Shown in pieces: positions 3,633 through 63,330 of a stretch of DNA of 64,000 bases. Made by a program: the position numbers and the translations under genes. The notes beneath the pieces are model-generated. The model had not been told where the DNA came from. It saw only the letters and a program-made list of their open reading frames with translations, and did no database searches. The number at the start of each line of letters is the position of its first letter. Within the stretch, counting starts at the first letter, position 1. This DNA comes from Deroplatys truncata (taxonomy: Eukaryota; Arthropoda; Insecta; Mantodea; Mantidae): contig CM060978.1 in NCBI GenBank assembly GCA_030765065.1, positions 218,321,498 through 218,385,497 on the forward strand, given 5' to 3'.

Positions 3633-3638
3633 CATATG
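3633..3638. repeat. Left target-site duplication CATATG
   Basis: CATATG occurs immediately outside both ends of the palindromic element (here and at 20576-20581). Six bases is the duplication length known for Mavericks/Polintons. CATATG is its own reverse complement, so it could equally be the outermost six bases of the inverted repeat. Confidence 0.6.
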
Positions 3639-3704
3639 AGTAGGGGGGAAATAAGAGAGCTGGCACAGTTAATTTATGCATGGCTATTCATATGCAAATG
3701 AGCT

Positions 3705-3749
3705 CCCCCACCTCCTCTCTCCCCCACCTCCTCCCTCCCCCTCCCCCCG
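3705..3749 (-). other. Subterminal G-rich tract (left)
   Basis: The plus strand is almost pure C/T; the minus strand has more than four runs of three to six G within 45 bases. This meets the usual pattern for a G-quadruplex or, as a purine/pyrimidine mirror tract, a triplex. The mirror copy is at 20471-20516. Confidence 0.6.
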
Positions 3750-4361
3750 CTGTGCCTTGGTAGTTTTAGCTGCACCTGCGGTCGTAAATCATGTTGAGTA
3801 CAATGGAGGCTTGACAGTTAGGTAATTAAAGCTGTCAATCAACTGTCAGAACGAACAAAGGGGTCATAAATTTAAGGTTCTGTAACAAAGGCGAGATGTT
3901 TTTCCTACCCATTCCACATCCGGCCACTTCTGCACCTGGTCAGTTACCCGCCCCCACTTCCATTGTGTGTGTCGAACACGTGGCATACTCGTTCCACTAG
4001 CTTTTAACAAAAGAACAATGCTTGCCCTTCAGCTGTCAAAATGAACAAAGCCCATGATGAATTAGGGTTGTAACAAAGCCTGACCCTTTCCATTGTGTAA
4101 GAGATTCTATTGTGTGTGCCTTTCTATTGTCCGATGCAAGCATTCTTTAGAAAGACCACCTGGCAACCCAATAACAAAGCCTGACCCTTTCCATTGTGTA
4201 AGAGATTCTATTGTCCTTGGCAAGGCTAGTTTAGAAAGACACCTGCAGCGTTCCCATTGTTTGGCCACCTGCTAGTTTAACAAAAGAATTCGAGGGTTGC
4301 TTTATACTCGTCCTGTCCTTGTTTGTGTGAAAGAGAGAGAAACTTGTTTACCAACTCTGCG

Positions 4362-4369
4362 TGACGTCA
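4362..4369. promoter_or_regulatory. CRE-type palindrome TGACGTCA
   Basis: Perfect CREB/ATF consensus at the end of the first promoter-like unit, in the context CTGCGTGACGTCA. Confidence 0.45.
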
Positions 4370-4600
4370 TACTTTAGAAAGACACCTGCTCCATAACAAA
4401 GCCTGACCCTTTCCATTGTGTAAGAGATTCTATTGTGTGTGCCTTTCTATTGTTCTGTGCAAGGCTAGTTTAGAAAGACACCTGCAGCGTTCCCATTGTT
4501 TGGCCACCTGCTAGTTTAACAAAAGAATTCGAGGGCTGCTTTATACTCGTCCTCTCCTTGTTGGTGTGAAAGAGAGAGAAACTTGTTTACCAACTCTGCG

Positions 4601-4608
4601 TGACGTCA
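4601..4608. promoter_or_regulatory. CRE-type palindrome TGACGTCA
   Basis: Second perfect CRE, 239 bp after the first and in the same context, so it was copied with the tandem unit. Confidence 0.45.
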
Positions 4609-4856
4609 GGTCGGCCATCATGATTTTGCCTGAGGGAGTTCTCCCCGATGTTTTACGACCTCCTACGAATATACCCGAGCATAGTTAACAAGCATTCTGT
4701 TTCAGCCAACGACTCCGAAAAAAGCGTCTAATATACATTTCATTACGTGCATTAAACCTCTGAGTGATATACATAGATCGGTGTTCGATTCTTACTGTAA
4801 TCAAAAGTTTATTGCTAATGAGAAATTAATGATTGATATTATTATATCATTACCCT

Positions 4857-5380
4857 AATTAATAAAAAGGCGTTCAGAGAATTCTAGCTCGAATCTTACC
4901 CAACGAAACTCTAATGCTTAATAAATATTAAACTATGCAAGGTCAGATTAAAATGCATTTAACAAATTTAATTTTTATATATCATTACAATAATTAATAA
5001 AAGGGTGTTCAGTGGGTTCTAGATCGAATCTCTAATGCTTAATAAATATTAAACTATCTGAGTATTGCGCGGCCAGATTAAAACGTGTTTAACGAATATA
5101 ATTTAATTAATGAAACGGTGTTCAGGGGGATCCTAGATCGAATCTGCGAAACTCTAATGCTTAATAAATATTAAACTATGCACGACCAGATTAAAATGTG
5201 TTTAACAAATATAATTTAATATACACGACATTACAATGTTTAACGATCTGTATTCTTAGGAACCAGAGGTCCATAGTTCGAATCCAACCCTGTGAAACGC
5301 TATAATAACTATTAAGTTATTGAAGCAGCGGGCGGTCGGATTAAAATTGCATTTAACAACTATAATTATTTATATTAAAC
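4857..5380 (+). repeat. Tandem array of 110-130-bp units, each with a B-box-like motif (left, about 4 units)
   Basis: Each unit has TTAATAAA..GTTCAG, then CTAGNTCGAATC (close to the Pol III B-box GWTCRANNC), then AAACTCTAATGC, AATAAATATTAAACTAT and CAGATTAAAA. The bases around the motif do not pair as a tRNA T-stem, so these are not tRNAs. The right arm has about six units (18590-19370). Confidence 0.65.
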
Positions 5381-5469
5381 CCTGATGCATACTTAGATAT
5401 CCCGAAGCCTAGACAACATTCTTTCTTCTTCTCCTCTCTTTTTCTTTCTATCTATCTCTTTCTTTCTCC

Positions 5470-5960
5470 ACGACTTGTACACATTCAGGCGTTCACATAT
5501 ACACGAGCGCTTGTACACACATCAGCAAACATACACTGGTGCACGCATGCACACACACTCACATACATACAATAGTACACACACATACACGCATTCACAC
5601 AACTCATGCGTATACATACATACACCAGTGCTCTTACACACATACATACACATGGACACACACACACATGCACACACATACACCAGTGCACACACGCATA
5701 CACGCACATGTAAGTACACACACGCACACACGTACATTCAAGTACACACACAATCACCTACATACACCGGCCCATACACAATGCACATACATACACCAGT
5801 ACACACACGCATTCACGCACCTCATGCGTATACATACATACACCAGTGCTCTTACACTCACACATACATATACATGGACAAACACACACACGTGCAAGCA
5901 CATATGCCTGTTCACTTACACCCAACAGCAGCAACCCACACACGTACACACCAACTCACG
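5470..5960 (+). repeat. CA/CACATA-rich tract (left arm)
   Basis: Degenerate ACACAC/ACATACA repeat about 490 bp long. Every frame is open and gives Thr/His- or Val/Cys-rich strings with no protein character, so the frames are not genes. Alternating purine/pyrimidine DNA of this type can adopt Z-form. Mirror copy at about 18010-18480. Confidence 0.85.
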
Positions 5961-6079
5961 CGCATGTCCTGAATGAAAAGAGACAAAATGATGCAATAAA
6001 AACTAATTATAGCTCGGGATGCAAGGCTCCATTTACGATTGCTCGAAACCGGTCTTCTAATAACTCCAAAACTAATTAA

Positions 6080-6790
6080 AATAAAGACAGTAAATAAACT
6101 TTATTACTTTTATGCCATTAGCTCGTTTCTTGTGCATGTATATTAGAGTCCGGGTGTCATGGGTTCGATCCTTAACTTTAAATCTCAATTATCTCAGAAA
6201 CTAGCAGGGATTAAGGTGCGGACCAAAGCACGATTTTTAGTTCCTACGATGAACAATTAATGCTTTATATAATTTCCAATCAGTGTCCCTAGCTCGAATC
6301 CCGATCTTTCAGTGACTTCCTTAATTTTCCACTGTGTTCTAGAATATATCACTTAGATCAATGTTGCAACTGCATACAGGTCTTTTAAACACATCAAACT
6401 AATATTATAAATAATTTTGTTTCTGGCGTTCTGAGTTCGAATACCGATTCAATGAAGTTTACTTATAAATTTAATAACAGTAAATAATTAAGACAAAGGT
6501 ACCAAATAAACCTATTACGTTTATGTCATCAGATAATATCTTGCGGGCGTATATTAGGGTACCTGACATCCAGGGTTCGATCCTTAAGTTTAAATCTCAA
6601 TTATCGCAGAAACAGGCAGAGATAGAGCTGTAGACGAAAGCATGTTTGATAGCTCATACAATGAACAATTAATGCTGTATATAATTTTCAATCAGTTGCC
6701 CCTAGTTCGAACCCCGATCTTTCAATGACTTCACTGATTTTCCTCTGTACTCTAGAATACATCACTTAGATTGATGCTTTAACTGCATGC
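6080..6790 (+). repeat. Diverged direct duplication (about 420 bp) with paired B-box-like motifs (left)
   Basis: The blocks at 6080-6370 and 6480-6790 share TATATTAG, GGGTTCGATCCTTAA, TAAATCTCAATTAT, GAACAATTAATGCT, CCGATCTTTCA and TAGAATA. Each carries two GTTCGANNC-like motifs (6163 and 6292; 6574 and 6704), with another at 6434. A GA-rich run follows at 6797-6832. The mirror is at 17215-17925. Confidence 0.65.
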
Positions 6791-6967
6791 AGCTGTGTGA
6801 GAGAGAGCGAGAGAGGGAGAGGAAGTGAAACAAGCAGGGATAGAAGTGCTGAGGGCCTCTGCGCATGCGTAGCAAGAGATGATGCCATTGGCTGCAATAA
6901 TCACGTGAAGTGTAAGCATCACAGCCATGATGACGTGCAGGCATCGCCTGGAGGGGGTTTAGATCCC

Positions 6968-6975
6968 TATATAAA
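6968..6975 (+). promoter_or_regulatory. TATA box of the left OB-fold-like gene
   Basis: TATATAAA, 125 bp upstream of the ATG in the first exon. Transcription would be expected to start about 25-30 bp downstream, near 7000. The same box is kept in the right arm at 16974-16981. Confidence 0.6.
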
Positions 6976-7099
6976 CAGACATCTGTCCCATGTTAGAACT
7001 GTTGTGTACTTATTAACTTTACATTCAAGTTTTAAAGAGCTTTAAAAGCAACGTGAGCTACAGGCCGTCTACACATTCAGCACATATCAAAACGGGGCA

Positions 7100-8222
7100 A
7101 TGCAAGGTGAGTTTTAAATAACTATACAAAATCACTGTTGGCTTTTACAATACATTTAATTTTATTTAAACGTTACAGTACATGAAAGACGATTCGTTAC
7201 AAAGAGCATCATATTTTCTAATCTGTGCTTTACATTAACATGGATTTCGCTGCATACTCTTCTTCAGTTCACATGATTTTCGCCACACATTCTTCTTACA
7301 TAAACATTCATACGACTTTCCCCTCATTCTTTGTTTCACTATACACTCACATGATTTCCTCTACTCATTCTTTATTCCACCTACAGGTTCATGCTTTGTT
7401 AACATTCACATGACTTTCTCTTCACATTCTTTGCTTCCATTAACATTCACATGATTTTCGCCACACCTTCTTCTTACATAAACATTCATACGACTTTACC
7501 CTCATTCTTTGTTTCACTATACACTCACATGATTTCCTCTACTCATTCTTTGTCCCCCTGCAGGTTCATGCTTTGTTAACATTCACACGACGTTCTCAGC
7601 TCATTTCTCTATTGACATTCACATGATCTTCTCAACACATTCTTCTTACTTAAACATTCATACGATTTTCCCCCTCATTCTTTGTTTCACTATACATTCG
7701 CACACGATTTCCTCTACTCATTCTTTGGTTCTCTGCTGGCTCATCTTCAATGAACATTCACATGATTTCTGTACTTATTCTTTATTTCTCTACACCCTCA
7801 TAGGCTTACTTACAAAACATACACACCCTAGTTCTTCAACTTGAATAATGTAGTGAAAATAATAATTCATGACAATGTCTGTTACAGATTGTTTAGCTGA
7901 TAGACTTAACAAGATGGTGGAAGAGCGTAGTTTCCTACCGACTCGCCGAGTTCAAGATCTCGAAATAGGTCTTAACTATGAGATAAAGTCCTTAAAGAGA
8001 GTTCAAACAAGATATGGTACCAGGATCGTATCTTCGCTGGAGGATTGTCAAGTGTTCTTGCCAGAGCGCTATAATTCGTTAACCGATCAAGAGATTGCAG
8101 AAATACCTGGGAGCGTATACCTACAGTATAATGGCATGGCAGAGAAGGGGAAATTTAAGACATGTAAATTGTCTTTTTTACATGCAAAGAAGGTGCGTAG
8201 AAGTGTCAAACTTAAGTATTGA
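7100..8222 (+). CDS. Small OB-fold-like (ssDNA-binding-type) protein, two exons, left copy
   Basis: I read exon 1 as 7100-7106 (ATGCAAG) followed by a perfect donor GTGAGT at 7107, and exon 2 as 7888-8222 after the acceptor TCTGTTACAG. The join is in frame and gives a 113-aa product starting MQDCLADRLNKMV. Without splicing an ATG at 7869 would also open the frame. The region LKRVQTRYGTRIV followed by QVFLPERY and SLTDQEI looks like an OB-fold single-stranded-DNA-binding protein of the kind I associate with arthropod mobile elements; this is inference from pattern. A poly(A) signal AATAAA is at 8255. The TATA box at 6968 supports an intact transcription unit. The right-arm copy differs at three residues. 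Confidence 0.6.
7205..7845 (+). repeat. Degenerate minisatellite inside the intron (left arm)
   Basis: Short phrases such as CATTCACATGA, TTTCCTCTACTCATTCTTTG, TTCTTCTTACATAAACATTC and CATACGACTTT recur at 30-60-bp intervals, nested in a larger period of about 180-200 bp. It fills nearly all of the intron. Open frames through it are incidental. The mirror is at about 16110-16760. Confidence 0.75.
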
Positions 8223-8260
8223 ATGTTCTCCCATTTCACAATGAAAAATTCATAAATAAA

Positions 8261-9390
8261 ACAACTGACTCATTGATATTACATATAAAGATACAAAAGA
8301 TGCATATTATAGAATTTTATAAAAAATTAACGAAATTACAATATCACATGCTTGAGTTTAATTATATCTAGCGCATTGAAATAACTCTAAATATCCGAAT
8401 GTTTATACAAATCTTTGTGCCCCTTTTTACATGTGCCATATGCTTCATTTTACATGTATCATAACAAAAAATGTAATTCTTTCCAGGTTGCCTTTACTTG
8501 ACCAAGATAGTTTTCTAAGACTTTCATTGTGCAATGTTTCAGGGTGTGCAATAAGAGGAAGAAGAAGAAGAGGAATAGCCTGCTGGCATGCAAAGGATGC
8601 TGACGCTATGGGAGGGTAGAATACCTACAAGAAACATTTCGGCAAGAAACGGGTGCTGAGACATCTACATCACCGAAACACATTAAGACAGGATCCTTAT
8701 ATAACATTACAGGGTATACAATGAAAAACTACGGTCAATTTTGTATACAATTCAATGCATTGCTGAGAGTTAGCTCGAACTAGTCTCCCTATATTCACTG
8801 AAATTAAGCATTGTGAGCAATAATTTAAGTGACTTTGAAAATACTTTAAGTAATGGTGAAATTTGTATCCTAAAAGACTTGAGCCCTGTATACATTAACA
8901 GCATTAAGGCTGTTTGCCACGCTGGAATACAAATTATGAAAATAAAAAGACTTTCATTTAAATAATAAGGAAATTTGCATAACCTGCTGTTACAAGTGTA
9001 ATGACATATACAGAAACAATGAGTCGGACGAGAAAGTGATGGAAATGTAAGATAAATAATAACAATAAAAGAATTAAGGTATGCTTTTACATAGTGTTTT
9101 TATTCATTAAAAATCCTTGTATTCCTAATGAAAAATAAATCATTACAATGATTAGTTTAAGTTATATCACAATGATCAAAAAGAGAACCGTCTTTAGATG
9201 CATTACTCGATCTTAAGTCAGAGCACCAAAAAATGACAAATCACGGCTTCTCCATTTTAGATGTGGTGTCACTATTCAGGTAAATTCATGTAACACAACA
9301 GGTTGAGTATGCAGATCTGTGGTCCTAAATGGGTGAAACAGAGTCTTATCCAGCTTAACAGTCTTGAGATCTCACCATCAGAAAGTCGAA
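8261..9390. other. Arm DNA without a recognised gene (left)
   Basis: The sequence is conserved between arms. A pyrimidine tract with acceptor-like CAG near 8486 precedes a 62-codon open frame (8431-8619) with a run of Arg, but I see no family signal. No promoter or structural motif stands out. Confidence 0.4.
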
Positions 9391-9597
9391 TCACAAACCT
9401 TCTCTACTCGCTGAGCACAGGTTTAACAACAGCATTCTCTTCACCCTGAGACGATGTAAAGTATATAAATGTTCAACTTGACAAGGGATTCTAAACTGGT
9501 TGTTAGAGTCCAGAACTGATGTATTATATGGTGAAAACACATGTTCCTCTTCTTAGCGATCTTGTCGTCGAATCTCGATAACATTGAAGATGCCCAT
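9391..9597 (-). pseudogene. Capsid-like N-terminal remnant (left copy)
   Basis: From an ATG at 9597 the frame reads MGIFNVI, then meets an in-frame TAA after about 14 codons, then continues in the same frame through an FSPYN and an RIPCQ segment and stops at 9391. The shape of this segment resembles the start of capsid-type proteins of Maverick/Polinton and related elements (family inference, moderate). The right-arm copy at 14346 has two extra codons and the same stop. Confidence 0.45.
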
Positions 9598-9599
9598 GA

Positions 9600-9749
9600 T
9601 TATAGGATTCTGAAGCCCAAAAACTGTAGGAACTGCTGATTGCGTGATGTTAACCTGATGGGCGTCAAGGGCAGAGCATGATGTGTGCGTCGAATCATTC
9701 CATTATTATATCCTCGACGTCGTTGACTTCTTCTAAAAACTATAGGCAT
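9600..9749 (-). CDS. Short Arg-rich protein, pX/core-like (left copy)
   Basis: ATG at 9749, stop at 9600, 49 aa. It opens with MPIVFRRSQRRRG, has a second basic patch and ends FLQFLGFRIL. The frame stays open upstream to 9833 and beyond without another ATG. The basic N-terminus and short length recall adenovirus pX-like or core proteins carried by Maverick/Polinton elements; I hold this loosely. The right-arm copy differs at one residue (K for Q near the end). The ATG of the broken capsid-like frame starts 3 bp downstream, an order that fits a virion gene cluster. Confidence 0.45.
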   Translation of the reverse strand: MPIVFRRSQRRRGYNNGMIRRTHHALPLTPIRLTSRNQQFLQFLGFRIL

Positions 9750-10131
9750 TATGCTTATATCCTTGTTTCTAAAGGCAATGATATTGCTGTTAGGCCCCCC
9801 TGTTTGCTCTATGAAGCGGATGTTTATGAACAACAGGTAAAATTTGATTTGATGGTTCCTGTGAAATACGTTATCCAGCCGTAACAGATGGGAAAACTGG
9901 TAGATGGAGTGTCCACTTTTACTATAGAGGAAGGAGACTGATGCAATACTGCGCTAAATTCGTATGATGCTCAACTTAAATATATTCACTAGGAAATCAG
10001 ATTCAGATAGCTGATTAGATGGAATAACTTTGTCACTGAAGGGCCACAGAACGTTCCTATAGAACAATCACTGGAAAAAATCAAGAGTGAAAGGAGTGAA
10101 ACGACATTTTTATTATTATTATTATTATTAT

Positions 10132-10781
10132 TCACTGATCTAATAAAGAAGACATTCGCATCCTAATATGAGGAATCTTTAAACGTCGGGCGTCCAAGTC
10201 AAGGTCTATGTTACTCAATGTTTTTTTCCGGGACAAGTATAGTCCTCTGCCAGAGTTTTTTGAATTCCCTTTCAGGCTCTGTCTCCTCTTCGTTTCTGTG
10301 TTTCTTCCCTTATTCTTCTTCACTCGAAAACTTCTCCCTCTTGCTTCAATTTCTCTGTTACGTCTCATCATTTCAGCAAGTTGTTTATCTGCAGCTTTTT
10401 CGTATTTACAGCTGAGGCAATTTGGGCCGCACATCCAGCAGCAGCGTCTAGAGCTGCAATAATTGGTATGAAAGGTAGAAATCCCCCTCGTTTCTTCTTC
10501 ATGGTTACTGCACCTGGAGCCACCTTTCCCTTCATAATTGCTGTTACTAGTCACGCTGCCAACTTTTCCCCCTAATGTAACATCAGATTGCACGCTTTTC
10601 CAAGTCGTTTCAGTCAGATCTTGGCAGCAATGTTTCTCGAAGCAGAGACCTTATGCTGAGCGTTGGCAATGCCGCTAAGATTACACGAATCGTCTAACGG
10701 AATAATTCCAGGGTCTCCTCTCTTTAATTTTTCTCTAGCTTTACCACAGTTCCTCAGCCTATGTAACCAGGTAAATGTACT
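10132..10781 (-). pseudogene. Broken virion-type gene: phospholipase-like, hydrophobic and protease-start segments
   Basis: Reading leftward on the minus strand: 10781-10614 is an open frame with a CGKAREKLKRGDPG segment and a Cys-containing segment resembling viral phospholipase-A2-type domains, but the expected His-Asp pair is replaced by Ser-Gly, and a TGA ends it. At 10495-10407 a different frame encodes a hydrophobic, Ala/Ile/Pro-rich stretch. At about 10400-10132 a third reading has KAADKQLAEM, GLYL and LKIPH, the last being where the adenain-type protease of Polintons would begin. Stops and frame changes separate the three. The palindrome's inner edge (10180) cuts the last part. No product can be made as it stands. 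Confidence 0.55.
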
Positions 10782-11073
10782 TCAACGATTGCAGGCTAGT
10801 GAGAGAGTTAATTAAACCGAAGCCTTTTGCGAGCTTAACCCCTTAGCTCTCACGTTATACTAATCGATTTTATTCAGGATAGTTTTTATACTTTCTCATT
10901 AGCGTATATACATTAAGAGCAATTTATTTTATTTTAGCCGTCAAGCTAGAGAGGATGAAACAAGAATGCTCACAGCCTATTCCTATGTTAGACTTTGAAA
11001 GCGACTTTAGATGTGAACTTAGTGGAAAACTGTTTCATGTCAACGTTATATACGTTCCCATCATGTAACCCAT

Positions 11074-12856
11074 TCAGGGAAAAGGTGACCAGCAAAGGGA
11101 AAAATGTTACCAGCAAAGGGAAAAAGGTTACCAGCAAAGGGAAAAAGGTGACCAGCAAAGGGAAAATGGTGACCAGCAAAGGGAAAAAGGTGACCAGCAA
11201 AGGGAAAAAGGTGACCAGCAAAGGGAAAAAGGTGACCAGCAAAGGGAAAAAGGTGACCAGGAAAGGGAAAAAGGTGACCAGCAAAGGGAAAAAGGTGACC
11301 AGCAAAGGGAAAAAGGTGACCAGCAAAGGGAAAAAGGTGACCAGCAAAGGGAAAAAGGTGACCAGCAAAGGGAAAAAGGTGACCAGCAAAGGGAAAAAGG
11401 TGACCAGCAAAGGGAAAAAGGTGACCAGCAAAGGGAAAAAGGTGACCAGCAAAGGGAAGAAGGTGACCAGCAAAGGGAAAAAGGTGACCAGCAAAGGGAA
11501 AAAGGTGACCAGGAAAGGGAAAAAGGTGACCAGCAAAGGGAAAAAGGTGACCAGGAAAGGGAAAAAGGTGACCAGCAAAGGGAAAAAGGTGACCAGGAAA
11601 GGGAAAAAGGTGACCAGCAAAGGGAAAAAGGTGACCAGCAACGGGAAAAAGGTGACCAGCAAAGGGAAAAAGGTGACCAGCAAAGGGAAAAAGGTGACCA
11701 GCAAAGGGAAAAAGGTGACCAGCAAAGGGAAAAAGGTGACCAGCAAAGGGAAAAAGGTGACCAGGAAAGGGAAAAAGGTGACCAGCAAAGGGAAAAAGGT
11801 GACCAGGAAAGGGAAAAAGGTGCCCAGCAAAGGGAAAAACGTGACCAGGAAAGGGAAAAAGGTGACCAGCAAAGGGAAAAAGGTGACCAGGAAAGGGAAA
11901 AAGGTGACCAGCAAAGGGAAAAAGGTGACCAGCAAAGGGAAAAAGGTGACCAGGAAAGGGAAAAAGGTGACCAGCAAAAGGAAAAAGGTGACCAGGAAAG
12001 GGAAAAAGGTGACCAGCAAAGGGAAAAAGGTGACCAGCAAAGGGAAAAAGGTGACCAGCAAAGGGAAAAAGGTGACCAGCACAGGGAAAAACGTGACCAG
12101 CAAAGAGAAAAAGGTGACCAGCAAAGGGAAAAAGGTGAGCAGCAAAGGGAAAAAGGTGACCAGCAAAGGGAAAAAGGTGACCAGGAAAGGGAAAAAGGTG
12201 ACCAGGAAAGGGAAAAAGGTGACCAGCAAAGGGAAAAAGGTGACCAGCAAAGGGAAAAAGGTGACCAGGAAAGGGAAAAAGGTGACCAGCAAAGGAAAAA
12301 ACGTGACCAGCAAAGGGAAAAAGGTGACCAGCAAAGGGAAAAAGGTGACCAGCAAAGGGAAAAAGGTTACCAGCAAAGGGAAAAAGGTGACCAGGAAAGG
12401 GAAAAAGGTGACCAGCAAAGGGAAAAAGGTGACCAGCAAAGGGAAAAAGGTGACCAGCAAAGGGAAAAAGGTGACCAGCAAAGGGAAAAAGGTGACCAGG
12501 AAAGGGAAAAATGTGATCAGCAAAGGGAAAAAGGTGACCAGGAAAGGGAAAAAAGGTGACCAGCAATGGGAAAAACGTGACCAGCAAAGGGAAAAATGTG
12601 ACCAGCAAAGGGAAAAATGCGACCAGCAAAGGGAAAAAAGTGACCAGCAAAGGGAAAAAATGTTACCAGCAAAGGGAAAAATGTGACCAGCAAAGGGAAA
12701 AATGTGACCAGCAAAGGGAAAAGGTGATCAGTAAAGGGAAAAATGGGACCAGAAGAGGGAAAAAGGTGACCAGCAAAGGGGAAAAGGTGACCAGGAAAGG
12801 GAAAAAGGTGGCCAGCAAAGGGAAAAAAAGGTGACCTGCAAAGGGAAAATGACCAG
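11074..12856. repeat. 21-bp minisatellite, about 85 copies, at the centre of the palindrome
   Basis: The unit is GTGACCAGCAAAGGG followed by five A and a G. Variants are mainly CAGC/CAGG and single substitutions. From about 11100 to 12545 some 70 units keep exact 21-bp register; later units contain one-base indels. Because 21 is a multiple of three, several frames are open on both strands: an ATG frame at 11037-12686 would encode VTSKGKK repeats, and minus frames encode LLVTFFP or GHLFPFA repeats. Each GGTGACC is a palindrome. I call it satellite-like, not a gene. Confidence 0.9.
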
Positions 12857-13169
12857 TATCTCCCTCAACTCTCGCATTCTCTGTGCTAACTATCAAGAAA
12901 ACTTGTACTCTTACCTCTATGAATCCATTTCTAGCTACTGGAATCTGCTTGTGCTTAATGAGATAGTTATAATTAACGAAATTACAACTATTATGTGCGA
13001 ATGCTACAATATTTTGCTTAGTCTAATTCGGGCATGGCTGTTTATATGCATCAAAACCTGAGTACATATATAAATACATAAATGTTAAAAAATAGCTCAG
13101 TCTCGTGTTATCGTATACGAATTCAACATCTACAGTATACATTGACTAGTTTATATATACTGCTTGAGC

Positions 13170-13718
13170 ATGAACACTCACAAAGACGGTCAATTACAGT
13201 CAATTTACGACAATCTTGATTTTTCGTATGTTTCCCAAGGGGGGAGTAATCGCTTTGTTAAGTGCTGCATATGTAATAGAACTTTAAAGAACAGGACAAT
13301 TTCAAGGCTTAAACAACATAGGAGACGATGCTGTAAAGCAATGGCCAGCTGTGCATTGACTACAACACCCAAACGAGATCCTGAAATCTTCTCAAGTCCC
13401 GAAGAGCGGGATTCAAGGTGTACCGTACTTGGAACCAGTTCAAGCGACCCTGTAATAACGTCAAGAGCTACCACTGATGAAGCAATGACAGCAGTTTCTT
13501 TGAATGAGCAAGCTCTGAATAAGCACACCAATGAAAGCAAGCATACTAGTGTCAAATCACCTAGATTAGAAGATATATCCAAAGCGAATACAGAGGAGAT
13601 GCTATACCGCTACACCGATCCTAATGATTTGGTAAACATGCTAAGGGTACTCATGATGCTTCATACACCAGATAAAATGACTTTTCCGATGCGATTAACG
13701 ACATTATTCAGGATTTAA
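13170..13718 (+). pseudogene. BED-type zinc-finger protein, frame broken near the C-terminus
   Basis: ATG at 13170; 182 codons to the stop at 13716. Residues about 27-55 hold CCICNRTLKNR followed by HRRRCC, a C-x2-C ... H-x3-C arrangement like a BED finger. The rest is Ser/Thr/Lys-rich with a C-terminal MLRVLMMLHTPDK segment. At an A-run near 13670 the frame apparently slips: the adjacent frame continues with an amphipathic helix-like tail to a stop at 13739, more protein-like than the current end. It lies in the unique spacer, 52 bp from the right arm. A DNA-binding role is inferred from the finger. Confidence 0.5.
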
Positions 13719-14193
13719 AGCTGGGTGGTTTTATAGCGTGATTAGCATTTGCAAAACCATGAAAGAGTTAGAAAGATTCGTCATATTAGGATGCGAATGT
13801 CTTCTTTATTAGATCAGTGAATAATAATAATAATAATAATTAAAATGTCCTTTCACTCTTGATTTTTTCCAGTGATTGTTCTATAGAAACGTTCTGCGAC
13901 CCTTCAGTGACAAAGTTATTCCATCTAATCAGCTGTCTGAATCTGATTTCCTAGTGAATATATTTAAGTTGAGCATCATACGAATTTAGCGCAGTATTGT
14001 ATCAGTCTCCTTCCTCTATAGTAAAAGTGGACACTCCATCTACCAGTTTTCCCATCTGTTACGGCTGGATAACGTATTTCACAGGAACCATCAAATCAAA
14101 TTTTACCTGTTGTTCATAAAGATCCGCTTCATAGAGCAAACAGGGGAGCCTAACAGCAATATCATTGCCTTTAGAAACAAGGATATAAGCATA

Positions 14194-14343
14194 ATGCCTA
14201 TAGTTTTTAGAAGAAGTCAACGACGTCGAGGATATAATAATGGAATGATTCGACGCACACATCATGCTCTGCCCTTGACGCCCATCAGGTTAACATCACG
14301 CAATCAGCAGTTCCTAAAGTTTTTGGGCTTCAGAATCCTATAA
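14194..14343 (+). CDS. Short Arg-rich protein, pX/core-like (right copy)
   Basis: Mirror of 9600-9749: 49 aa from the ATG at 14194, starting MPIVFRRSQRRRG and ending FLKFLGFRIL. The frame is open upstream to at least 14050 without an ATG, so a spliced or longer form is possible. The capsid-like remnant follows 3 bp downstream on the same strand. Confidence 0.45.
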   Translation: MPIVFRRSQRRRGYNNGMIRRTHHALPLTPIRLTSRNQQFLKFLGFRIL

Positions 14344-14345
14344 TC

Positions 14346-14558
14346 ATGGGCATCTTCAATGTTATCGACACCGAGATTCGACGACAAGATCGCTAAGAAG
14401 AGGAACATGTGTTTTCACCATATAATACATCAGTTCTGGACTCTAACAACCAGTTTAGAATCCCTTGTCAAGTTGAACATTTATATACTTTACATCGTCT
14501 CAGGGTGAAGAGAATGCTGTTGTTAAACCTGTACTCATCGAGTGGAGAAGGCTTGTGA
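14346..14558 (+). pseudogene. Capsid-like N-terminal remnant (right copy)
   Basis: ATG at 14346, in-frame TAA at 14394, then the same frame stays open to TGA at 14556. It contains QFRIPCQ and EHLYTL, a layout like the start of capsid-type proteins in Maverick/Polinton-like elements. No clear homology continues beyond 14560. Confidence 0.45.
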
Positions 14559-14589
14559 TTCGACTTTCTGATGCTGAGATCTCAAGACT

Positions 14590-15690
14590 GTTAAGCTGGA
14601 TAAGACTCTGTTTCACCCATTTAGGACCACAGATCTGCATACTCAACCTGTTGTGTTACATGAATTTACCTGAATAGTGACACCACATCTAAAATGGAGA
14701 AGCCGTGATTTGTCATTTTTTGGTGCTCTGACTTAAGATCGAGTAATGCATCTAAAGACGGTTCTCTTTTTGATCATTGTGATATAACTTAAACTAATCA
14801 TTGTAATGATTTATTTTTCATTAGGAATACAAGGATTTTTAATGAATAAAAACACTATGTAAAAGCATACCTTAATTCTTTTATTGTTATTATTTATCTT
14901 ACATTTCCATCACTTTCTCGTCCGACTCATTGTTTCTGTATATGTCATTACACTTGTAACAGCAGGTTATGCAAATTTCCTTATTATTTAAATGAAAGTC
15001 TTTTTATTTTCATAATTTGTATTCCAGCGTGGCAAACAGCCTTAATGCTGTTAATGTATACAGGGCTCAAGTCTTTTAGGATACAAATTTCACCATTACT
15101 TAAAGTATTTTCAAAGTCACTTAAATTATTGCTCACAATGCTTAATTTCAGTGAATATAGGGAGACTAGTTCGAGCTAACTCTCAGCAATGCATTGAATT
15201 GTATACAAAATTGACCGTAGTTTTTCATTGTATACCCTGTAATGTTATATAAGGATCCTGTCTTAATGTGTTTCGGTGATGTAGATGTCTCAGCACCCGT
15301 TTCTTGCCGAAATGTTTCTTGTAGGTATTCTACCCTCCCATAGCGTCAGCATCCTTTGCATGCCAGCAGGCTATTCCTCTTCTTCTTCTTCCTCTTATTG
15401 CACACCCTGAAACATTGCACAATGAAAGTCTTAGAAAACTATCTTGGTCAAGTAAAGGCAACCTGTAAAGAATTACATTTTTTGTTATGATACATGTAAA
15501 ATGAAGCATATGGCACATGTAAAAAGGGGCACAAAGATTTGTATAAACATTCGGATATTTAGAGTTATTTCAATGCGCTAGATATAATTAAACTCAAGCA
15601 TGTGATATTGTAATTTCGTTAATTTTTTATAAAATTCTATAATATGCATCTTTTGTATCTTTATATGTAATATCAATGAGTCAGTTGTTT
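14590..15690. other. Arm DNA without a recognised gene (right)
   Basis: Mirror of 8261-9390, with the same 62-codon open frame on the minus strand (15330-15518) and no recognised family. Confidence 0.4.
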
Positions 15691-15726
15691 TATTTATGAA
15701 TTTTTCATTGTGAAATGGGAGAACAT

Positions 15727-16849
15727 TCAATACTTAAGTTTGACACTTCTACGCACCTTCTTTGCATGTAAAAAAGACAATTTAAATGTCTTAAATTTCC
15801 TCTTCTCTGCCATGCCATTATACTGTAGGTATACGCTCCCAGGTATTTCTGCAATCTCTTGATCGGTTAACGAATTATAGCGCTCTGGCAAGAACACTTG
15901 ACAATCCTCCAGCGAAGATACGATCCTGGTACCATATCTTGTTTGAACTCTCTTTAAGGACTTTATCTCATAGTTAAGACCTATTTCGAGATCTTGAACT
16001 CGACGAGTCGGTAGGAACCTACGCTCTTCCACCATCTTGTTAAGTCTATCAGCTAAACAATCTGTAACAGACATTGCCATGAATTATTATTTTCACTACA
16101 TTATTCAAGTTGAAGAACTAGGGTGTGTATGTTTTGTAAGTAAGCCTATGAGGGTGTAGAGAAATAAAGAATAAGTACAGAAATCATGTGAATGTTCATT
16201 GAAGATGAGCCAGCAGAGAACCAAAGAATGAGTAGAGGAAATCGTGTGCGAATGTATAGTGAAACAAAGAATGAGGGGGAAAATCGTATGAATGTTTAAG
16301 TAAGAAGAATGTGTTGAGAAGATCATGTGAATGTCAATAGAGAAATGAGCTGAGAACGTCGTGTGAATGTTAACAAAGCATGAACCTGCAGCGGGACAAA
16401 GAATGAGTAGAGGAAATCATGTGAGTGTATAGTGAAACAAAGAATGAGGGTAAAGTCGTATGAATGTTTATGTAAGAAGAAGGTGTGGCGAAAATCATGT
16501 GAATGTTAATGGAAGCAAAGAATGTGAAGAGAAAGTCATGTGAATGTTAACAGAGCATGAACCTGTAGGTGGAATAAAGAATGAGTAGAGGAAATCATGT
16601 GAGTGTATAGTGAAACAAAGAATGAGGGGAAAGTCGTATGAATGTTTATGTAAGAAGAATATGTGGCGAAAATCATGTGAACTGAAGAAGAGCATGCAGT
16701 GAAATCCATGTGAATGTAAAGCACAGATTATAAAATATGATGCTCTTTGTAACGAATCGTCTTTCATGTACTGTAACGTTTAAATAAAATTAAATGTATT
16801 GTAAAAGCCAACAGTGATTTTGTATAGTTATTTAAAACTCACCTTGCAT
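15727..16849 (-). CDS. Small OB-fold-like (ssDNA-binding-type) protein, two exons, right copy
   Basis: Mirror of the left gene: exon 1 at 16849-16843 (ATGCAAG, donor GTGAGT kept), exon 2 at 16061-15727 after the acceptor TCTGTTACAG. It differs from the left copy by S to R, G to R and C to F, plus one silent change. Both copies keep the frame, both splice sites and the TATA box, so both could be expressed. Confidence 0.6.
16110..16760 (-). repeat. Degenerate minisatellite inside the intron (right arm)
   Basis: Mirror of 7205-7845, with the same nested phrases in reverse complement (TCATGTGAATGT, CAAAGAATGAGTAGAGGAAA, GTATGAATGTTTA). Confidence 0.75.
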
Positions 16850-16973
16850 TGCCCCCGTTTTGATATGTGCTGAATGTGTAGACGGCCTGTAGCTCACGTT
16901 GCTTTTAAAGCTCTTTAAACTTGAATGTAAAGTTAATAAGTACACAACAGTTCTAACATGGGACAGATGTCTG

Positions 16974-16981
16974 TTTATATA
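16974..16981 (-). promoter_or_regulatory. TATA box of the right OB-fold-like gene
   Basis: TATATAAA on the minus strand, 125 bp upstream of the exon 1 ATG, identical in context to the left arm. Confidence 0.6.
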
Positions 16982-17128
16982 GGGATCTAAACCCCCTCCA
17001 GGCGATGCCTGCACGTCATCATGGCTGTGATGCTTACACGTCACGTGATTATTGCAGCCAATGACATCATCTCTTGCTACGCATACGCAGAGGCCCTCAG
17101 CACTTCTATCCCTGCTTGGTTCACTTCC

Positions 17129-17176
17129 TCTCCCTCTCTCGCTCTCTCTCTCGCTCTCTCGCTCTCTCTCACACAG
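17129..17176. repeat. CT/GA-rich microsatellite
   Basis: TCTCTCGCTCTC-type run. The left-arm counterpart (6797-6832) is shorter, so it is one of the length-variable sites between arms. Confidence 0.8.
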
Positions 17177-17214
17177 AGTACATCCATAATGTCGTTACAC
17201 AAAGCTGCATGCAG

Positions 17215-17925
17215 TTAAAGCATCAATCTAAGTGATGTGTTCTAGAGTACAGAGGAAAATCAGTGAAGTCATTGAAAGATCGGGATTCGAACTAGGGGCA
17301 ACTGATTGAAAATTATATACAGCATTAATTGTTCATTGTATGAGCTATCAAACATGCTTTCGTCTACAGCTCTATCTCTGCTAGTTTCTGCGATAATTGA
17401 GATTTAAACTTAAGGATCGAACCCTGGACGTCAGGTACGCTAATATACGCCCGCAAGATATTATCTGATGACATAAACGTAATAGGTTTATTTGGTACCT
17501 TTGTCTTAATTATTTACTGTTATTAAATTTATAAGTAAACTTCATTGAATCGGTATTCGAACTCAGAACGCCAGAAACAAAATTATTTATAATATTAGTT
17601 TGATGTGTTTAAAAGACCTGTATGCAGTTGCAACATTGATCTAAGTGATATATTCTAGAACACAGTGGAAAATTAAGGAAGTCACTGAAAGATCGGGATT
17701 CAAGCTAGGGACACTGATTGGAAATTATATAAAGCATTAATTGTTCATCGTAGGAACTAAAAATCGTGCTTTGGTCCGCACCTTAATCCCTGCTAGTTTC
17801 TGAGATAATTGAGATTTAAAGTTAAGGATCGAACCCATGACACCCGGACTCTAATATACATGCACAAGAAACGAGCTAATGGCATAAAAGTAATAAAGTT
17901 TATTTACTGTCTTTATTTTAATTAG
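17215..17925 (-). repeat. Diverged direct duplication with B-box-like motifs (right)
   Basis: Mirror of 6080-6790, with the same two blocks and paired GTTCGANNC-like motifs on the minus strand. Confidence 0.65.
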
Positions 17926-18009
17926 TTTTGGAGTTATTAGAAGACCGGTTTCGAGCAATCGTAAATGGAGCCTTGCATCCCGAGCTATAATTAGTTTTTA
18001 TTGCATCAT

Positions 18010-18480
18010 TTTGTCTCTTTTCATTCAGGACATGCGCGTGAGTTGGTATGTGCGTGTGTGGGTTGGTGCTGTTGGGTGTAAGTGAACAGGCATATGTGCT
18101 TGCACGTGTGTGTGTTTGTCCATGTATATGTATGTGTGAGTGTAAGAGCACTGGTGTATGTGTGTATGTATACGCATGAGGTGCGTGAATGTGTGAGTGT
18201 AAGAGCACTGGTGTATGTGTGTATGTATACGCATGAGGTGCGTGAATGCGTGTGTGTACTGGTGTATGTATGTGTGTGTGTGTACTGTTGTATGTATGTG
18301 CATGTGTGTGTGTGTATGTGCTGGTGTATGTATATGCGTGTGTGTATGTGCTTGCGTGTGTGCGTGTGTGTACTTACATGTGCGTGTGTGTATGTGCTTG
18401 CATGCGTGCACCAGTGTATGTTTGCTGATGTGTGTACAAGCGCTCGTGTATATGCGAACGCCTGAATGTGTACAAGTCGT
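18010..18480 (-). repeat. CA/CACATA-rich tract (right arm)
   Basis: Mirror of 5470-5960, read here as GT-rich. A stretch of about 55 bp containing GAGTGTAAGAGCACTGGTG and GCATGAGGTGCGTGAATG is tandemly duplicated at 18133-18250 in this arm only. Confidence 0.85.
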
Positions 18481-18589
18481 GGAGAAAGAAAGAGGAGAAG
18501 AAGAAAGAATGTTGTCTAGGCTTCGGGATATCTAAGTATGCATCAGGGTTTAATATAAATAATTATAGTTGTTAAATGCAATTTTAATC

Positions 18590-19370
18590 CGACCGTCCGC
18601 TGCTTCAATAACTTAATAGTTATTATAGCATTTCACAGGGTTGGATTCGAACTAGGGGCCTCTGGTTCCTAACAATACAGATCGTTAAACATTGTAATGT
18701 TGTATAAATTAAATTATATTTGTTAAACACGTTTTAATCTGACCGCCCAATACTCACATAGTTTAATATTTATTAAGCATTAGAGTTTCGCAGATTCGAT
18801 CTAGAATCCTCTGAACACCGTTTCATTAATTAAATTATATTTGTTAAATACATTTTAATCTAACCGTGCATAGTTTAATAGTTATTGGGTATTAGGGTTT
18901 CGCAGATTCGATCTAGGACCCTGTGAACACCCTTTTTATTAATTATTGTAATGATATATAAAATTAAATTATATTTGTTAAATACATTTTAATCTGACCT
19001 TACATAGTTTAATATTTATTAAGCATTAGAGTTTCGCTGCGTAAGATTCGAACTAGGGTCCTCTGAACGGTCTTTCATTAATCAGGGTAATGATGTATAA
19101 AAAATTATATTTGATAAATACATTTTTAAATCTGACCTTGCATAGTTTAATATTTATTAAGCATTAGAGTTTCGTTTGGTAAGATTCGAACTAGAACCCT
19201 CTGAACACCCTTTCATTAATTTGGGTAATGATGTATAAAAATTAAATTATATTTGTTAAATACATTTTCAATCTGGTCTTGCATAGTTTAATAGTTATTT
19301 CGAGTTAGAGTTTCACTTGGTAAGAGTCGAGCTACAATCCTCTGAACGCCGTTTTTATTATTTAAGGTAA
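18590..19370 (-). repeat. Tandem array of B-box-like units (right, about 6 units)
   Basis: Mirror of 4857-5380 with about two additional units. Each unit has ATTCGAACTAG or ATTCGATCTAG in the plus strand, between CATTAGAGTTTCG and CTCTGAACACC. Confidence 0.65.
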
Positions 19371-19609
19371 TGATATAATAATATCAATCATTAATTTCTC
19401 ATTAGCAATAAACTTTTGATTACAGTAAGAATCGAACACCGATCTATGGATATCACTCACACGTTTAATGCACGTAATGAAATGTATATTAGATGCTTTT
19501 CGGAGTCGTTGGCTGAAACAGAATGCTTGTTAACTATGCTCGGATATATTCGTAGGAGGTCGTAAAACATCGGGGAGAACTCCCTCAGGCAAAATCATGA
19601 TGGCCGACC

Positions 19610-19617
19610 TGACGTCA
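19610..19617. promoter_or_regulatory. CRE-type palindrome TGACGTCA
   Basis: Counterpart of the site at 4601-4608. Confidence 0.45.
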
Positions 19618-19848
19618 CGCAGAGTTGGTAAACAAGTTTCTCTCTCTTTCACACAAACAAGGAGAGGACGAGTATAAAGCAGCCCTCGAATTCTTTTGTT
19701 AAACTAGCATGTGGCCAAACAATGGGAACGCTGCAGGTGTCTTTCTAAACTAGCCTTGCACAGAACAATAGAAAGGCACACACAATAGAATCTCTTACAC
19801 AATGGAAAGGGTCAGGCTTTGTTATGGAGCAGGTGTCTTTCTAAAGTA

Positions 19849-19856
19849 TGACGTCA
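19849..19856. promoter_or_regulatory. CRE-type palindrome TGACGTCA
   Basis: Counterpart of the site at 4362-4369; 239 bp from its neighbour, as in the left arm. Confidence 0.45.
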
Positions 19857-20470
19857 CGCAGAGTTGGTAAACAAGTTTCTCTCTCTTTCACACAAACAAG
19901 GACAGAACGAGTATAAAGCAACCCTCGAATTCTTTTGTTAAACTAGCAGGTGGCCAAACAATGGGAACGCTGCAGGTGTCTTTCTAAACTAGCCTTGCCA
20001 AGGACAATAGAATCTCTTACACAATGGAAAGGGTCAGGCTTTGTTATTGGGTTGCCAGGTGGTCTTTCTAAAGAATGCTTGCATCGAACAATAGAAAGGC
20101 ACACACAATAGAATCTCTTACACAATGGAAAGGGTCAGGCTTTGTTACAACCCTAATTCATCATGGGCTTTGTTCATTTTGACAGCTGAAGGGCAAGCAT
20201 TGTTCTTTTGTTAAAAGCTAGTGGAACGAGTATGCCACGTGTTCGACACACACAATGGAAGTGGGGGGCGGGTAACTGACCAGGTGCAGAAGTGGCCGGA
20301 TGTGGAATGGGTAGGAAAAACATCTCGCCTTTGTTACAGAACCTTAAATTTATGACCCCTTTGTTCGTTTTGACAGTTGATTGACAGCCTTAATTACCTA
20401 ACTGTCAAGCCTCCATTGTACTCAACATGATTTACGACCGCAGGTGCAGCTAAAACTACCAAGGCACAGC

Positions 20471-20516
20471 GGGGGGAGGGGGAGGGAGGAGGTGGGGGAG
20501 GGAGGAGGTGGGGGAG
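20471..20516 (+). other. Subterminal G-rich tract (right)
   Basis: Runs of three to six G separated by one or two bases on the plus strand; at least six runs in 46 bases. It is slightly longer than its left-arm mirror. Confidence 0.6.
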
Positions 20517-20575
20517 CTCATTTGCATATGAATAGCCATGCATAAATTAACTGTGCCAGCTCTCTTATTTCTACT

Positions 20576-20581
20576 CATATG
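20576..20581. repeat. Right target-site duplication CATATG
   Basis: Partner of 3633-3638. Bases further out (ACTAT on the left, TGAAG on the right) do not match in either orientation, so the unit ends here. Confidence 0.6.
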
Positions 20582-21396: not shown

Positions 21397-22399
21397 TGAA
21401 ACGGCAACTCTAGGCCAAGCCCGAGAACTGTAATTATAGATAATTTGATTAATTAATTTTTATTGATGTTAATTCATGCTATCTACATATCTTTTTCTTT
21501 TTACTACTTGTATAGTTTAAGAAGGGTGATTTAACGATATGTATGTATTTAGGTTACTAATATTAGAGGAGTTATGAATTGTTTAATGTAAATAATTTAA
21601 GCGCTATGTTAAAATACTGTCCACGACGAAATGTTTTAGCTACAGGAATAGTATCTTCGAAGGCAGAAAATATAGTTTTACGATGTCTCTCTGGTCGCAG
21701 GGGCATTGTTCATACAGCGAGGGTGTAGAGTCTTTGTTCCTTTATACGATAATTCGCCGTGACCAAGTGAGAGAGACAACTAGCTTAACGGTAAATTTAG
21801 GAAAAGCCGTGATTAATGTTAAACTTGGACCAATGAGATCCCTGTAAGTTTATATGAAATAGTGAGACGCGTCGAGTGGCGCTAAAAATGGACCAATAGG
21901 AAAGGAAGCAGCCCCAGAAGCCTGCGACTGGATCTGCTAGGAACAAATTCGAGGCATTTTGTCATTTTTGGGTCATTTGTCATGTGGTCAGGGAACATTT
22001 TGCTAAACTACAGGCAGGGAGAGATGCTGCAGGATGTTTGAGAGATATCGCGAAAAAAGGGAATGAAGACAGTTTTCGAAACACACATAAGAATCGCTAC
22101 TCGTAAAGAGATAATAAGCATATTTAAACTTCGCGTCATATCCGCGCAGTGTTTCAACAGCGGTGGACGGTATTTTAACGGCGGCAATATCAGTGTGGTG
22201 TACTACGTGGATTAGCTAAATAAAAGAAACTGCGGTGTCATCTTTTCGTAACCAAAGCACGTCTATTTCTCCTTTTACCACCACCCGAGATCTACGCTTC
22301 CTTTACCAAGGATAAGTCCATGCTCCCACATAGTTTAAAGAAAATTACTGCAGCTAGCCGAGGATAAAAAAGATGTAGAGAACCAGCACACTGCGAACA
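21397..22399 (+). repeat. LTR-like repeat family B, copy 1
   Basis: About 1 kb, starting TGAAACGGCAACTC and ending GCGAACA, with an inverted copy at 51406-52393. TG...CA ends, CCAAT-like ACCAATGAG and a late AATAAA (22220) fit an LTR. A primer-binding-site-like motif follows two bases after the CA. No second LTR in direct orientation is present, so only one end of an element is here. Confidence 0.55.
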
Positions 22400-22401
22400 T
22401 C

Positions 22402-22421
22402 TGGAGCCAACATGGAGGATG
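22402..22421 (+). other. Primer-binding-site-like motif after LTR B
   Basis: TGGAGCCAACATGGAGGATG, similar in layout to the TGG...CCAACGTGG primer-binding sites of many insect LTR elements. A donor-like CAAGGTAAG follows. The copy at 51384-51403 has CCAACGTGG. Confidence 0.45.
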
Positions 22422-22511
22422 CAGCAAGGTAAGCCGCGAGCAACGGGCATCAACAAGAACCACGACATCGGACAGGAGGTGACTGCCGCACCACGAACCA
22501 AACAAAAAACA

Positions 22512-27952: not shown

Positions 27953-29132
27953 TTCATATTTTGAGCCTAACAATTAAATCAAAGTAATTTATGATTGAAA
28001 ACTGCTTTATTGTTTTTTGGTTTTTGAAGGCATCAACGACTTCTTCTGCCGTTGATCAACGCAAATCTTGTCCACGCAATTTATTCATGATGCTTGGGTA
28101 CAAAAAGAAGTTATTGGGTGCCAAATCAGAGCTGTATGGCGGATGACCCATCAATTCGATTTTTTGAACCTTCAAATACTCTGTTGTTAGACTAGATGTG
28201 TGTGCGCTCGCATTGTCTTGATGAAGAACGATCCTACGGTTCTTGTTGGTTTTCCTTACTGCACCGAAGACTTCCGGCAAACAAATGGTTGTGTACCATT
28301 CGGCATTGACCGTTTTACGTTCCTCTAAAGGCACTGTTGCCACATGGCCAGTTTTGCTGAAAAAGTAGGCGACCATTTGCTTCGAAGTGCTTCGAGTGCG
28401 AGCAACTTTTGTTGGATTTGCTTCATCTTAAAACACCCATACAGTCGACTGCTGTTTACGTTCCGGCTCATACTCATAGATCCATGATTCGTCACCTGTT
28501 ACAATCTTATATACGTCTTTTGAGGCACCGTCATTGTATTTCTTGGGCACTTTTGTACACCAATCGACACGAGCATCTTTTTGAGATTGCGTCAAATTAT
28601 GTGGGATCCAACAAGAGCAAAACCTTTTCACGGCTAAATAATCATGTAATATTTTATATATGCTAGTGGAACTAATGCCTAGTGTTACCTCAATCTCACA
28701 ATATGTCGCATGACGATCTTTCATTATTAGTGTTTTGCACAGCATCAATGTTTTGTGGCACAGTAACTGATTTTGGACGACCTTCACGAACTTCATCATT
28801 GAGCGAACGGCGGCCACGATTAAATTCGTTATACCAGCGTTTCACAGTGGCAAAGGATGGAGCTTCGTCGCCAAATGTGGAAGTTAGTTCATCGATGCAC
28901 TCTTGTCTTGATAATCCACGTCGAAATTCGTAATATATGAGTGCACGAACATTTTCACGAGTTAATTCCATGTTTTTGTTGACACACAATTTTGAAGTTA
29001 GTGTAAACAAAACAAATGCCGCTCTATTAACAAAATGTTTGAAGTAGATTATGGTCAAAAATGTCAAACGTTCCATTGGAAACGTCAAATGGCACCTACA
29101 ACATTCAGGGTTGTCAAGGCTCAAAATATAAA
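27953..29132 (-). mobile_element. Mariner-type transposon, inactive
   Basis: A 1,180-bp element with imperfect terminal inverted repeats (left TTCATATTTTGAGCC; right, inverted, TTTATATTTTGAGCC) flanked by TA on both sides, the mariner target duplication. It encodes a broken transposase. The length is slightly below the usual 1.25-1.3 kb because the 3' part of the gene is missing. Confidence 0.85.
28010..28971 (-). pseudogene. Mariner transposase, broken
   Basis: Starts at ATG 28971 (MELTRENVRALIYYEF), with an N-terminal helix-turn-helix (SRQECIDELTSTFGDEA, VKRWYNEFNRGR). First catalytic Asp in VTGDESWIYEYEPE, second in VLHQDNASAHT. The third should sit 34 residues later in the LAPN-x-FF context, but Asn (AAC) is there, so the DD34D triad is lost. 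Frame changes lie near 28720-28780 and 28400-28430, and an in-frame TGA at 28056 follows GQDLR, after which the frame reads on for about 12 residues before the gene is cut by the terminal repeat. Confidence 0.85.
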
Positions 29133-29134
29133 TA

Positions 29135-29600
29135 CTTACTGCGTTAAAGAATCGCACGTGTTATTAATAAAACGGAATCTTGAAGGATTTCTAGCATAAA
29201 GAGTGAGAAAAGTGAAAACAGTGTTTCTTTCTAGACAATATTCTGGTGTTATCATTCCCTCATCCTATCCTGACATAATCACCATAGGTAACTTCAGATC
29301 AATTGGCCGACAGTTGAGCACTGAGATAACGACGTGTGCTTCCTTACTGACATCGGTGACATCAATGCTTGAAGACGACCCCTAAGACGTAGCGGTGAGA
29401 TCTACAACGACGCAGGTAAGAAGAAGTCGACTACGAGGGCGACGAGAACCACTAAAAGAGTTGAGATCATAGCTCATGCTATCAACGAAGAGCTGTACAA
29501 CCAGGTCAGTTGCAGGCATTCTTAGCAAGCGTAAAAAAAACGTACTATGGATAACGCATTATTTTTATTACAATCAATAAACAGTAATTTAAAAACGAAC
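29135..29600. other. No recognisable gene
   Basis: No coding family seen. A short AT-rich run leads into the SINE. Confidence 0.4.
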
Positions 29601-51290: not shown

Positions 51291-51405
51291 ATGAAATTAT
51301 TAAGTGTAGTTTGCGGCTGTATCTCCTCCTGTCCTTTGTTGTGGGTGTTTTTTAATGCCCGTTGCTCGCGGCTTACCTTGCTGCATCCTCCACGTTGGCT
51401 CCAGA

Positions 51406-57992: not shown

Positions 57993-58003
57993 TTTTTTTT
58001 TTT

Positions 58004-61039: not shown

Positions 61040-61071
61040 TGCTCGTTTGCTTCTATCAAGATTTACTTGAA

Positions 61072-63317: not shown

Positions 63318-63330
63318 TAGTACTTAGTAG
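63318..63330. repeat. LINE target-site duplication, right
   Basis: TAGTACTTAGTAG, matching 57980-57992. Confidence 0.6.

Follow-up and report, generated by a model that had tools for sequence, protein, structure and literature searches.

A palindromic, probably non-autonomous Polinton/Maverick derivative with concerted arms in the genome of the mantis Deroplatys truncata

The 64,000-nucleotide stretch of Deroplatys truncata DNA analyzed here (contig CM060978.1, assembly GCA_030765065.1; "the window") contains a palindromic mobile element at positions 3639-20575 (16,937 bp). The element is flanked by the 6-bp target-site duplication CATATG (left copy at 3633..3638, right copy at 20576..20581). 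Its left arm of 6,542 bp (3639..10180, plus strand) and right arm of 6,804 bp (13772..20575, minus strand), an inverted copy of the left one, are separated by an unpaired, non-palindromic center of 3.6 kb (10181-13771). The inner limit of the left arm is marked by the 8 bases AAAGATTC, which are also found in the right arm. The original prediction, made from the letters of the window, described near-identical arms of more than 6 kb. This description holds for the inner half of the arms (98.6% identity over the inner 3.4 kb), but the outer half is looser in this copy, with blocks of 90.1% and 93.2% identity and with indels. The predicted AGTAG...CTACT ends and the CATATG on both sides were confirmed.

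The palindrome retains pieces of Polinton/Maverick genes. We compared eleven proteins of full-length Polintons from the same genome (putative helpers, described below) with six records (tblastn, E up to 1e-3); the matches given here are those listed for the window element and one further copy, C7. The major capsid protein gene survives as broken pieces, which correspond to helper residues 1-50 and 184-287 in several frames and lie at 9160..9597 (minus strand) in the left arm, with their mirror copy at 14346..14789 (plus strand) in the right arm. Next to them are a fragment of a putative minor capsid gene (residues ~107-231; 9750..10109, minus strand) and its mirror copy (13840..14193, plus strand); this protein has no Pfam match and is presumptively named from its position and gene order. 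The unpaired center carries broken pieces of a PLA2-like/AdenoPX gene (10222..10757, minus strand) and the first ~50 codons of a packaging ATPase gene (residues 4-54; 10895..11047, plus strand), after which the gene is cut off. In C7 alone, the center additionally holds a C-terminal piece of one helper protein (E = 4e-06), and there are weak traces of a 148-aa helper protein (E = 7e-04). Polymerase, integrase, protease, the 137-aa accessory protein, and the 362-aa core protein are not among the matches listed for the window element and C7. Without polymerase and integrase matches, the palindrome is therefore a non-autonomous derivative and not a Polinton proper. Its capsid and packaging genes are present as broken fragments only, in contrast to the intact capsid gene of the full element. 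Hence, the predicted loss of polymerase and integrase agrees with these searches, while that of the ATPase is incomplete. The proposal that terminal genes were kept in duplicate is refined by the pieces of two capsid genes in both arms, and the 117-aa gene of the arms cannot be clearly equated with a gene of the full elements.

The window element is one of many insertions. Using its terminal 468 bp as a query, we scored 40 hits out of 2,400 candidates in the 4.29-Gb source genome. The hits form 12 inverted pairs (16.5 to 19.3 kb apart) and 16 single ends, and thus represent 28 elements, in line with the expectation that other copies with the same ends would exist. Twelve elements (the window element and 11 others) were read at both ends, and of these seven are palindromic and five are full-length, the latter with repeats of 1.8-2.1 kb. 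For the other 16 elements (one pair and 15 single ends), the type was assigned from a single 1.5-kb stretch lying inside one end of each; this stretch matches the palindrome arm in 12 elements (96-99.5%) and the full type in four (94-99%). In total, 19 of the 28 elements are of the palindromic type and nine of the full type, a ratio that may lean toward palindromes, given that the query came from the window element itself and that scoring was limited to the best 40 candidates. For the 12 palindromic-type elements typed from one end, we also read a second stretch ~11-13 kb inward. This far stretch is an inverted match to the near stretch in nine elements (over 175-1,501 bp; eight at 99.6-100% and one at 93.7%); in the three without such a match, it consists of inverted arm sequence (two elements) or center (one element).

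All 12 elements read at both ends start with AGTAG and are flanked by perfect 6-bp duplications, each of them different, which is far beyond chance. AGT-type ends together with 6-bp duplications are given as a signature of Polintons/Mavericks in the accessible text of PMC8097293. The first bases differ between the 12 elements (AGTAGGGGGG, AGTAGGGTAG, AGTAGTAGGG, and others), and the two ends agree within an element in 11 of 12 cases, the exception being the window element. Such variation would be compatible with slippage during initiation and subsequent repair of the ends.

The full-length elements bear the same ends as the palindrome and reside in the same genome. Profile searches of one full copy recovered the integrase, ATPase, and capsid by Pfam, as well as a PLA2-like protein (rve integrase, E = 8.7e-10; Pox_A32-like ATPase, E = 6e-07; double-jelly-roll capsid protein, E = 1.9e-109; PLA2-like protein, E = 1.2e-14), and an adenain-like protein gave a weak match below the Pfam cut-off (E = 0.012). 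The polymerase was recognized by motifs only: PolB motif positions were located in a 1,207-aa protein, which we take to be PolB, and for which Pfam gave no polymerase family. Searches of PDB sequences with the polymerase and capsid queries returned no match. All eleven helper frames compared were matched in each of the five full copies, in some copies free of stop codons and in others with stops. Among the best 120 of 947 capsid relatives, 13 carry an organism name, and all 13 are from insects (bee, ants, beetles, and fly), which points to an insect host. Adjoining the 137-aa accessory protein of the full Polintons, a second stretch that is 40-49% identical to it is found in all five copies (at 3668-4421 in the full element L013).

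The arrangement of the remnants suggests how the two types of elements are related. Along the left arm and center, the remnants follow the order of the capsid half of the full element. Where the sequence would continue toward the integrase and polymerase, it stops at the inner boundary, and the inverted copy of the arm starts there. In other words, one Polinton half now has its near end, copied and inverted, in place of its far end, and collinear remnants followed by an inverted arm are the map of a copy-back event. The palindrome and the full-length elements of the same genome have both ends and remnant genes in common, as expected of a Polinton-derived non-autonomous element, and the palindrome carries one end twice, inverted, around a unique loop, as copy-back defective genomes do. 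In all seven complete palindromes, both inner boundaries fall at the same AAAGATTC, which indicates a single founder. At a C/G variant adjoining these bases, the two arms agree in six of the seven copies, the exception again being the window copy.

Within a copy, the two arms resemble each other more than they resemble the arms of other copies. Over the inner 3.4 kb, arms of the same copy differ by 0.12-0.33% in six of the seven copies and by 1.04% in the window copy, while the divergence between copies is 0.77-2.43% (fewer sites could be compared for one C10 arm, from which ~350 bp are missing). In most of these six copies, the near-identity of the arms reaches the last bases before the boundary. 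In a tree of the seven copies, the left and right arms are sisters in all seven, the window pair with a support of 0.63 only. Among private substitutions in gap-free columns of the seven copies, 61 are found in both arms and 44 in one arm, 16 of the latter in the window copy; the corresponding six-copy count is 68 and 40. Because so many private changes sit in both arms, the arms have evidently been recopied from each other. In one copy, the 117-aa frame is broken by a 23-bp deletion that likewise occurs in both arms. These concordant changes are not explained if the arms have simply decayed independently of each other since the founder.

The outer ends resemble the full elements more closely than the interior does. 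The terminal part of the window element that is homologous to the terminal inverted repeats of full-length Polintons (3639..5031, plus strand) is ~97% alike overall, and the outermost 0.9 kb of the left arm is 98.6-100% identical to the best of four full copies. When the outer 0.9 kb of nine arms was compared with these four copies, the best match was at least 98% in 25 of 27 300-bp steps (the exceptions are 94.7% and 97.99%), whereas the coding remnants of the inner palindrome are ~80% alike to the full elements. In C10, full-type sequence extends to ~1.8 kb in one arm but not in the other (the C10 right arm is missing from the tree of ends); in C3 it does so in both arms, although the match drops to 93% at 0.9-1.2 kb. 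These patterns look like an exchange of ends followed by copying between arms. An arm and one full element have many 21-mers in common in the outer ~2 kb and 51 in the inner part, which could conceivably hint at small-RNA targeting.

Besides the capsid and ATPase remnants, the palindromes contain two reading frames of unclear identity and an array of short repeats. The 117-aa open reading frame lies in the left arm (7869..8222, plus strand) and, as an inverted copy, in the right arm (15727..16080, minus strand), and two candidate splice sites were read by eye, a donor at 7105 and an acceptor at 7887. Six copies were translated: four (window, C7, C9, and C10) have the frame open in both arms, C13 has it open in a single arm, and C3 has it open in neither. 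The protein has no match in Pfam, PHROGs, NCBIfam, a large protein set, or viral contigs, its matches to PDB sequences are at chance level (E = 0.6-0.8), and its single-sequence fold prediction is poor (mean pLDDT of 51). A kinship with the 148-aa helper protein was considered and rejected (22-23% identity over 81 aa, E = 0.4-2, not significant). The 192-codon frame (13164..13738, plus strand) combines a weak BED-like zinc finger, below the Pfam cut-off, with a C-terminus that resembles the end of a helper Polinton protein, a match seen in another copy. It is open in six of the seven complete copies, is frameshifted near its end in the window copy, and has no relatives at E = 0.01. Codon changes in the two frames amount to 9 replacement and 5 silent in one and 22 replacement and 15 silent in the other, against a neutral expectation of ~3.7 replacement changes per silent change (uniform change, mutation bias uncorrected), so coding constraint is at most weak. 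Repeat comparison delimits an array of a 21-bp unit (11076..12858, plus strand), and as this unit length is divisible by three, several frames run open through the array. The unit is present in all six palindromes counted, in 20 to 98 exact copies, and in none of the five full elements.

We consider it likely that the window element derives from an insect-type Polinton/Maverick as a palindromic form that is no longer autonomous, and that it is propagated as a helper-dependent, copy-back-like satellite. The shared ends and gene remnants support the fold-back, non-autonomous Polinton derivative that was originally predicted. The founder would stem from a single event during replication of the linear Polinton DNA: near a short match, synthesis would have jumped to the displaced strand of the same molecule and copied back to the end from which it had started, producing two equal ends and a loop. 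With the polymerase and integrase lost, the enzymes of full-length elements would replicate and insert the palindrome via the shared termini; this presumed dependence on helper enzymes follows from the two missing genes. Displaced strands may form a 6.5-kb stem by folding during replication, and the arms paired in it would be made equal by repair or copying ahead of each insertion, to drift afterwards. Near-identical arms inside copies that have drifted apart are what strand displacement and folding of the displaced strand predict. A transposon-derived Polinton-type polymerase with strand displacement is described in the accessible part of PMC3511435, and truncated EMALEs with regenerated repeats offer a precedent for end repair, as far as the available text of PMC8547959 goes.

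Several observations weigh against this interpretation. Neither replication intermediates nor transcripts nor excisions were seen. The genome does contain full-length relatives with these ends, as the original prediction anticipated, but the direct parent is missing, because none of the five full copies compared is closer than ~80% in the coding remnants. A smaller tree of six copies does not pair the two arms of the window element as sisters, and the distance of one C10 arm to C9 (0.36-0.50%) is about the same as that to its own partner (0.33%). In 500-bp bins, outer arms differ by up to ~12% in the window element and ~20% in C10; these diverged blocks indicate that homogenization is imperfect and that exchange with other elements occurs. 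In addition, the fusion of two inverted elements gives the same map as copy-back, and chromosomal gene conversion could likewise equalize the arms. The last two points together define a scenario in which head-to-head Polintons recombined in the chromosome and then suffered a deletion, the arms being equalized by gene conversion after insertion. Conversion between arms is well known in chromosomal palindromes, the predicted map is identical, and the concordant private changes carry no date of their own. On the other hand, the 1.8-2.1-kb repeats of the five full elements are similarly near-identical, which fits a reset at replication, and two palindromes keep diverged blocks beside near-identical ones that in-place conversion has not erased. 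Neither point is decisive, and we regard the chromosomal origin as unlikely, though deserving of some weight.

Other explanations fare worse. Long palindromes are a classic assembly problem, and a collapsed or mirrored contig could imitate one. However, the seven complete copies lie on seven contigs with their own flanks and matching duplications, the center is unique and non-palindromic, and the arms differ by real substitutions. Given the perfect 6-bp duplications of all 12 complete elements, an assembly artefact is very unlikely, and we set it aside with almost no residual weight. The palindromes might instead form a Polinton-like family in their own right, in which long repeats and a distinct gene set are the normal state and not the result of a defect. 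The open state of the 192-codon frame in six of seven copies and of the 117-aa frame in both arms of four of six would agree with such a family, as would the poor match of both frames to full-element genes, save for the C-terminus of the 192-codon frame. Yet the absence of polymerase and integrase from the matches listed for the window element and C7, the broken capsid and ATPase pieces, the at most weak constraint, and the copy with the 117-aa frame broken in both arms make this family highly improbable. The copy-back interpretation itself can be extended to a heritable satellite that is a self-folding hairpin replicated by full-element enzymes, outnumbers these elements, swaps ends with them, and restrains its helper through 6.5-kb hairpin transcripts or competing termini, i.e., a built-in interfering genome of an animal virus-like transposon. 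We view this extension as speculative and improbable.

The remainder of the window contains other repeats. By eye, a non-long-terminal-repeat retrotransposon is recognizable at 58149-63159 (minus strand), with a 695-aa zinc-knuckle protein and an 839-aa reverse-transcriptase-like protein, and is flanked by related tandem repeat blocks (56395-57993 and 63318-64000) whose copies are roughly 75-82% alike. A broken remnant of a mariner-type transposase, also read by eye, lies at 28428-29157 (minus strand). An inverted pair of ~1.1 kb (21397-22490 and 51312-52393; 90% identity, 29 kb apart) perhaps represents another transposon family. Searches against RNA families gave no match within the window.

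Palindromic or end-duplicated Polintons were not among the matches listed for the open literature, as judged from titles and the openings of abstracts, a search that extended to neither subscription papers nor repeat databases. To our knowledge, Polinton replication has been argued mostly from the sequence of the polymerase. The palindrome family seems to be a natural record of that replication, and dating arms against orthologous insertions makes the replication model testable. Autonomous Polintons/Mavericks have the AGT-type ends, 6-bp duplications, terminal sequence, and capsid/PLA2-like/ATPase gene order in common with the palindrome, but they alone have polymerase, integrase, and intact capsid genes. 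The arms of the palindrome measure 6.5-6.8 kb, compared with repeats of 1.8-2.1 kb in the five full elements and, according to the accessible text of PMC8097293, of 46-1,447 bp in 134 intact vertebrate Mavericks. The nearest known form appears to be the truncated virophages with regenerated repeats among the EMALEs of Cafeteria (three of 33 elements, with repeats of 0.2-2.3 kb), for which the available text of PMC8547959 describes neither an amplified palindromic family nor concerted arms. Foldback-type transposons such as FB, Galileo, and Tetris, as far as the accessible descriptions go, resemble the palindrome in very long inverted repeats and little coding capacity. They belong to other superfamilies, whereas the ends and gene remnants of the palindrome are those of a Polinton. 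Turn-around forms of parvoviruses and end-duplicated adenovirus DNAs are comparable end-duplicated genomes. The copy-back or snap-back defective genomes of negative-strand RNA viruses likewise carry one end twice, inverted, around a unique loop and use helper enzymes, as the palindrome presumably does; unlike them, the palindrome is heritable DNA inserted in chromosomes. We suggest that end-duplicated satellites able to amplify can arise from Polintons, as they do from RNA viruses.

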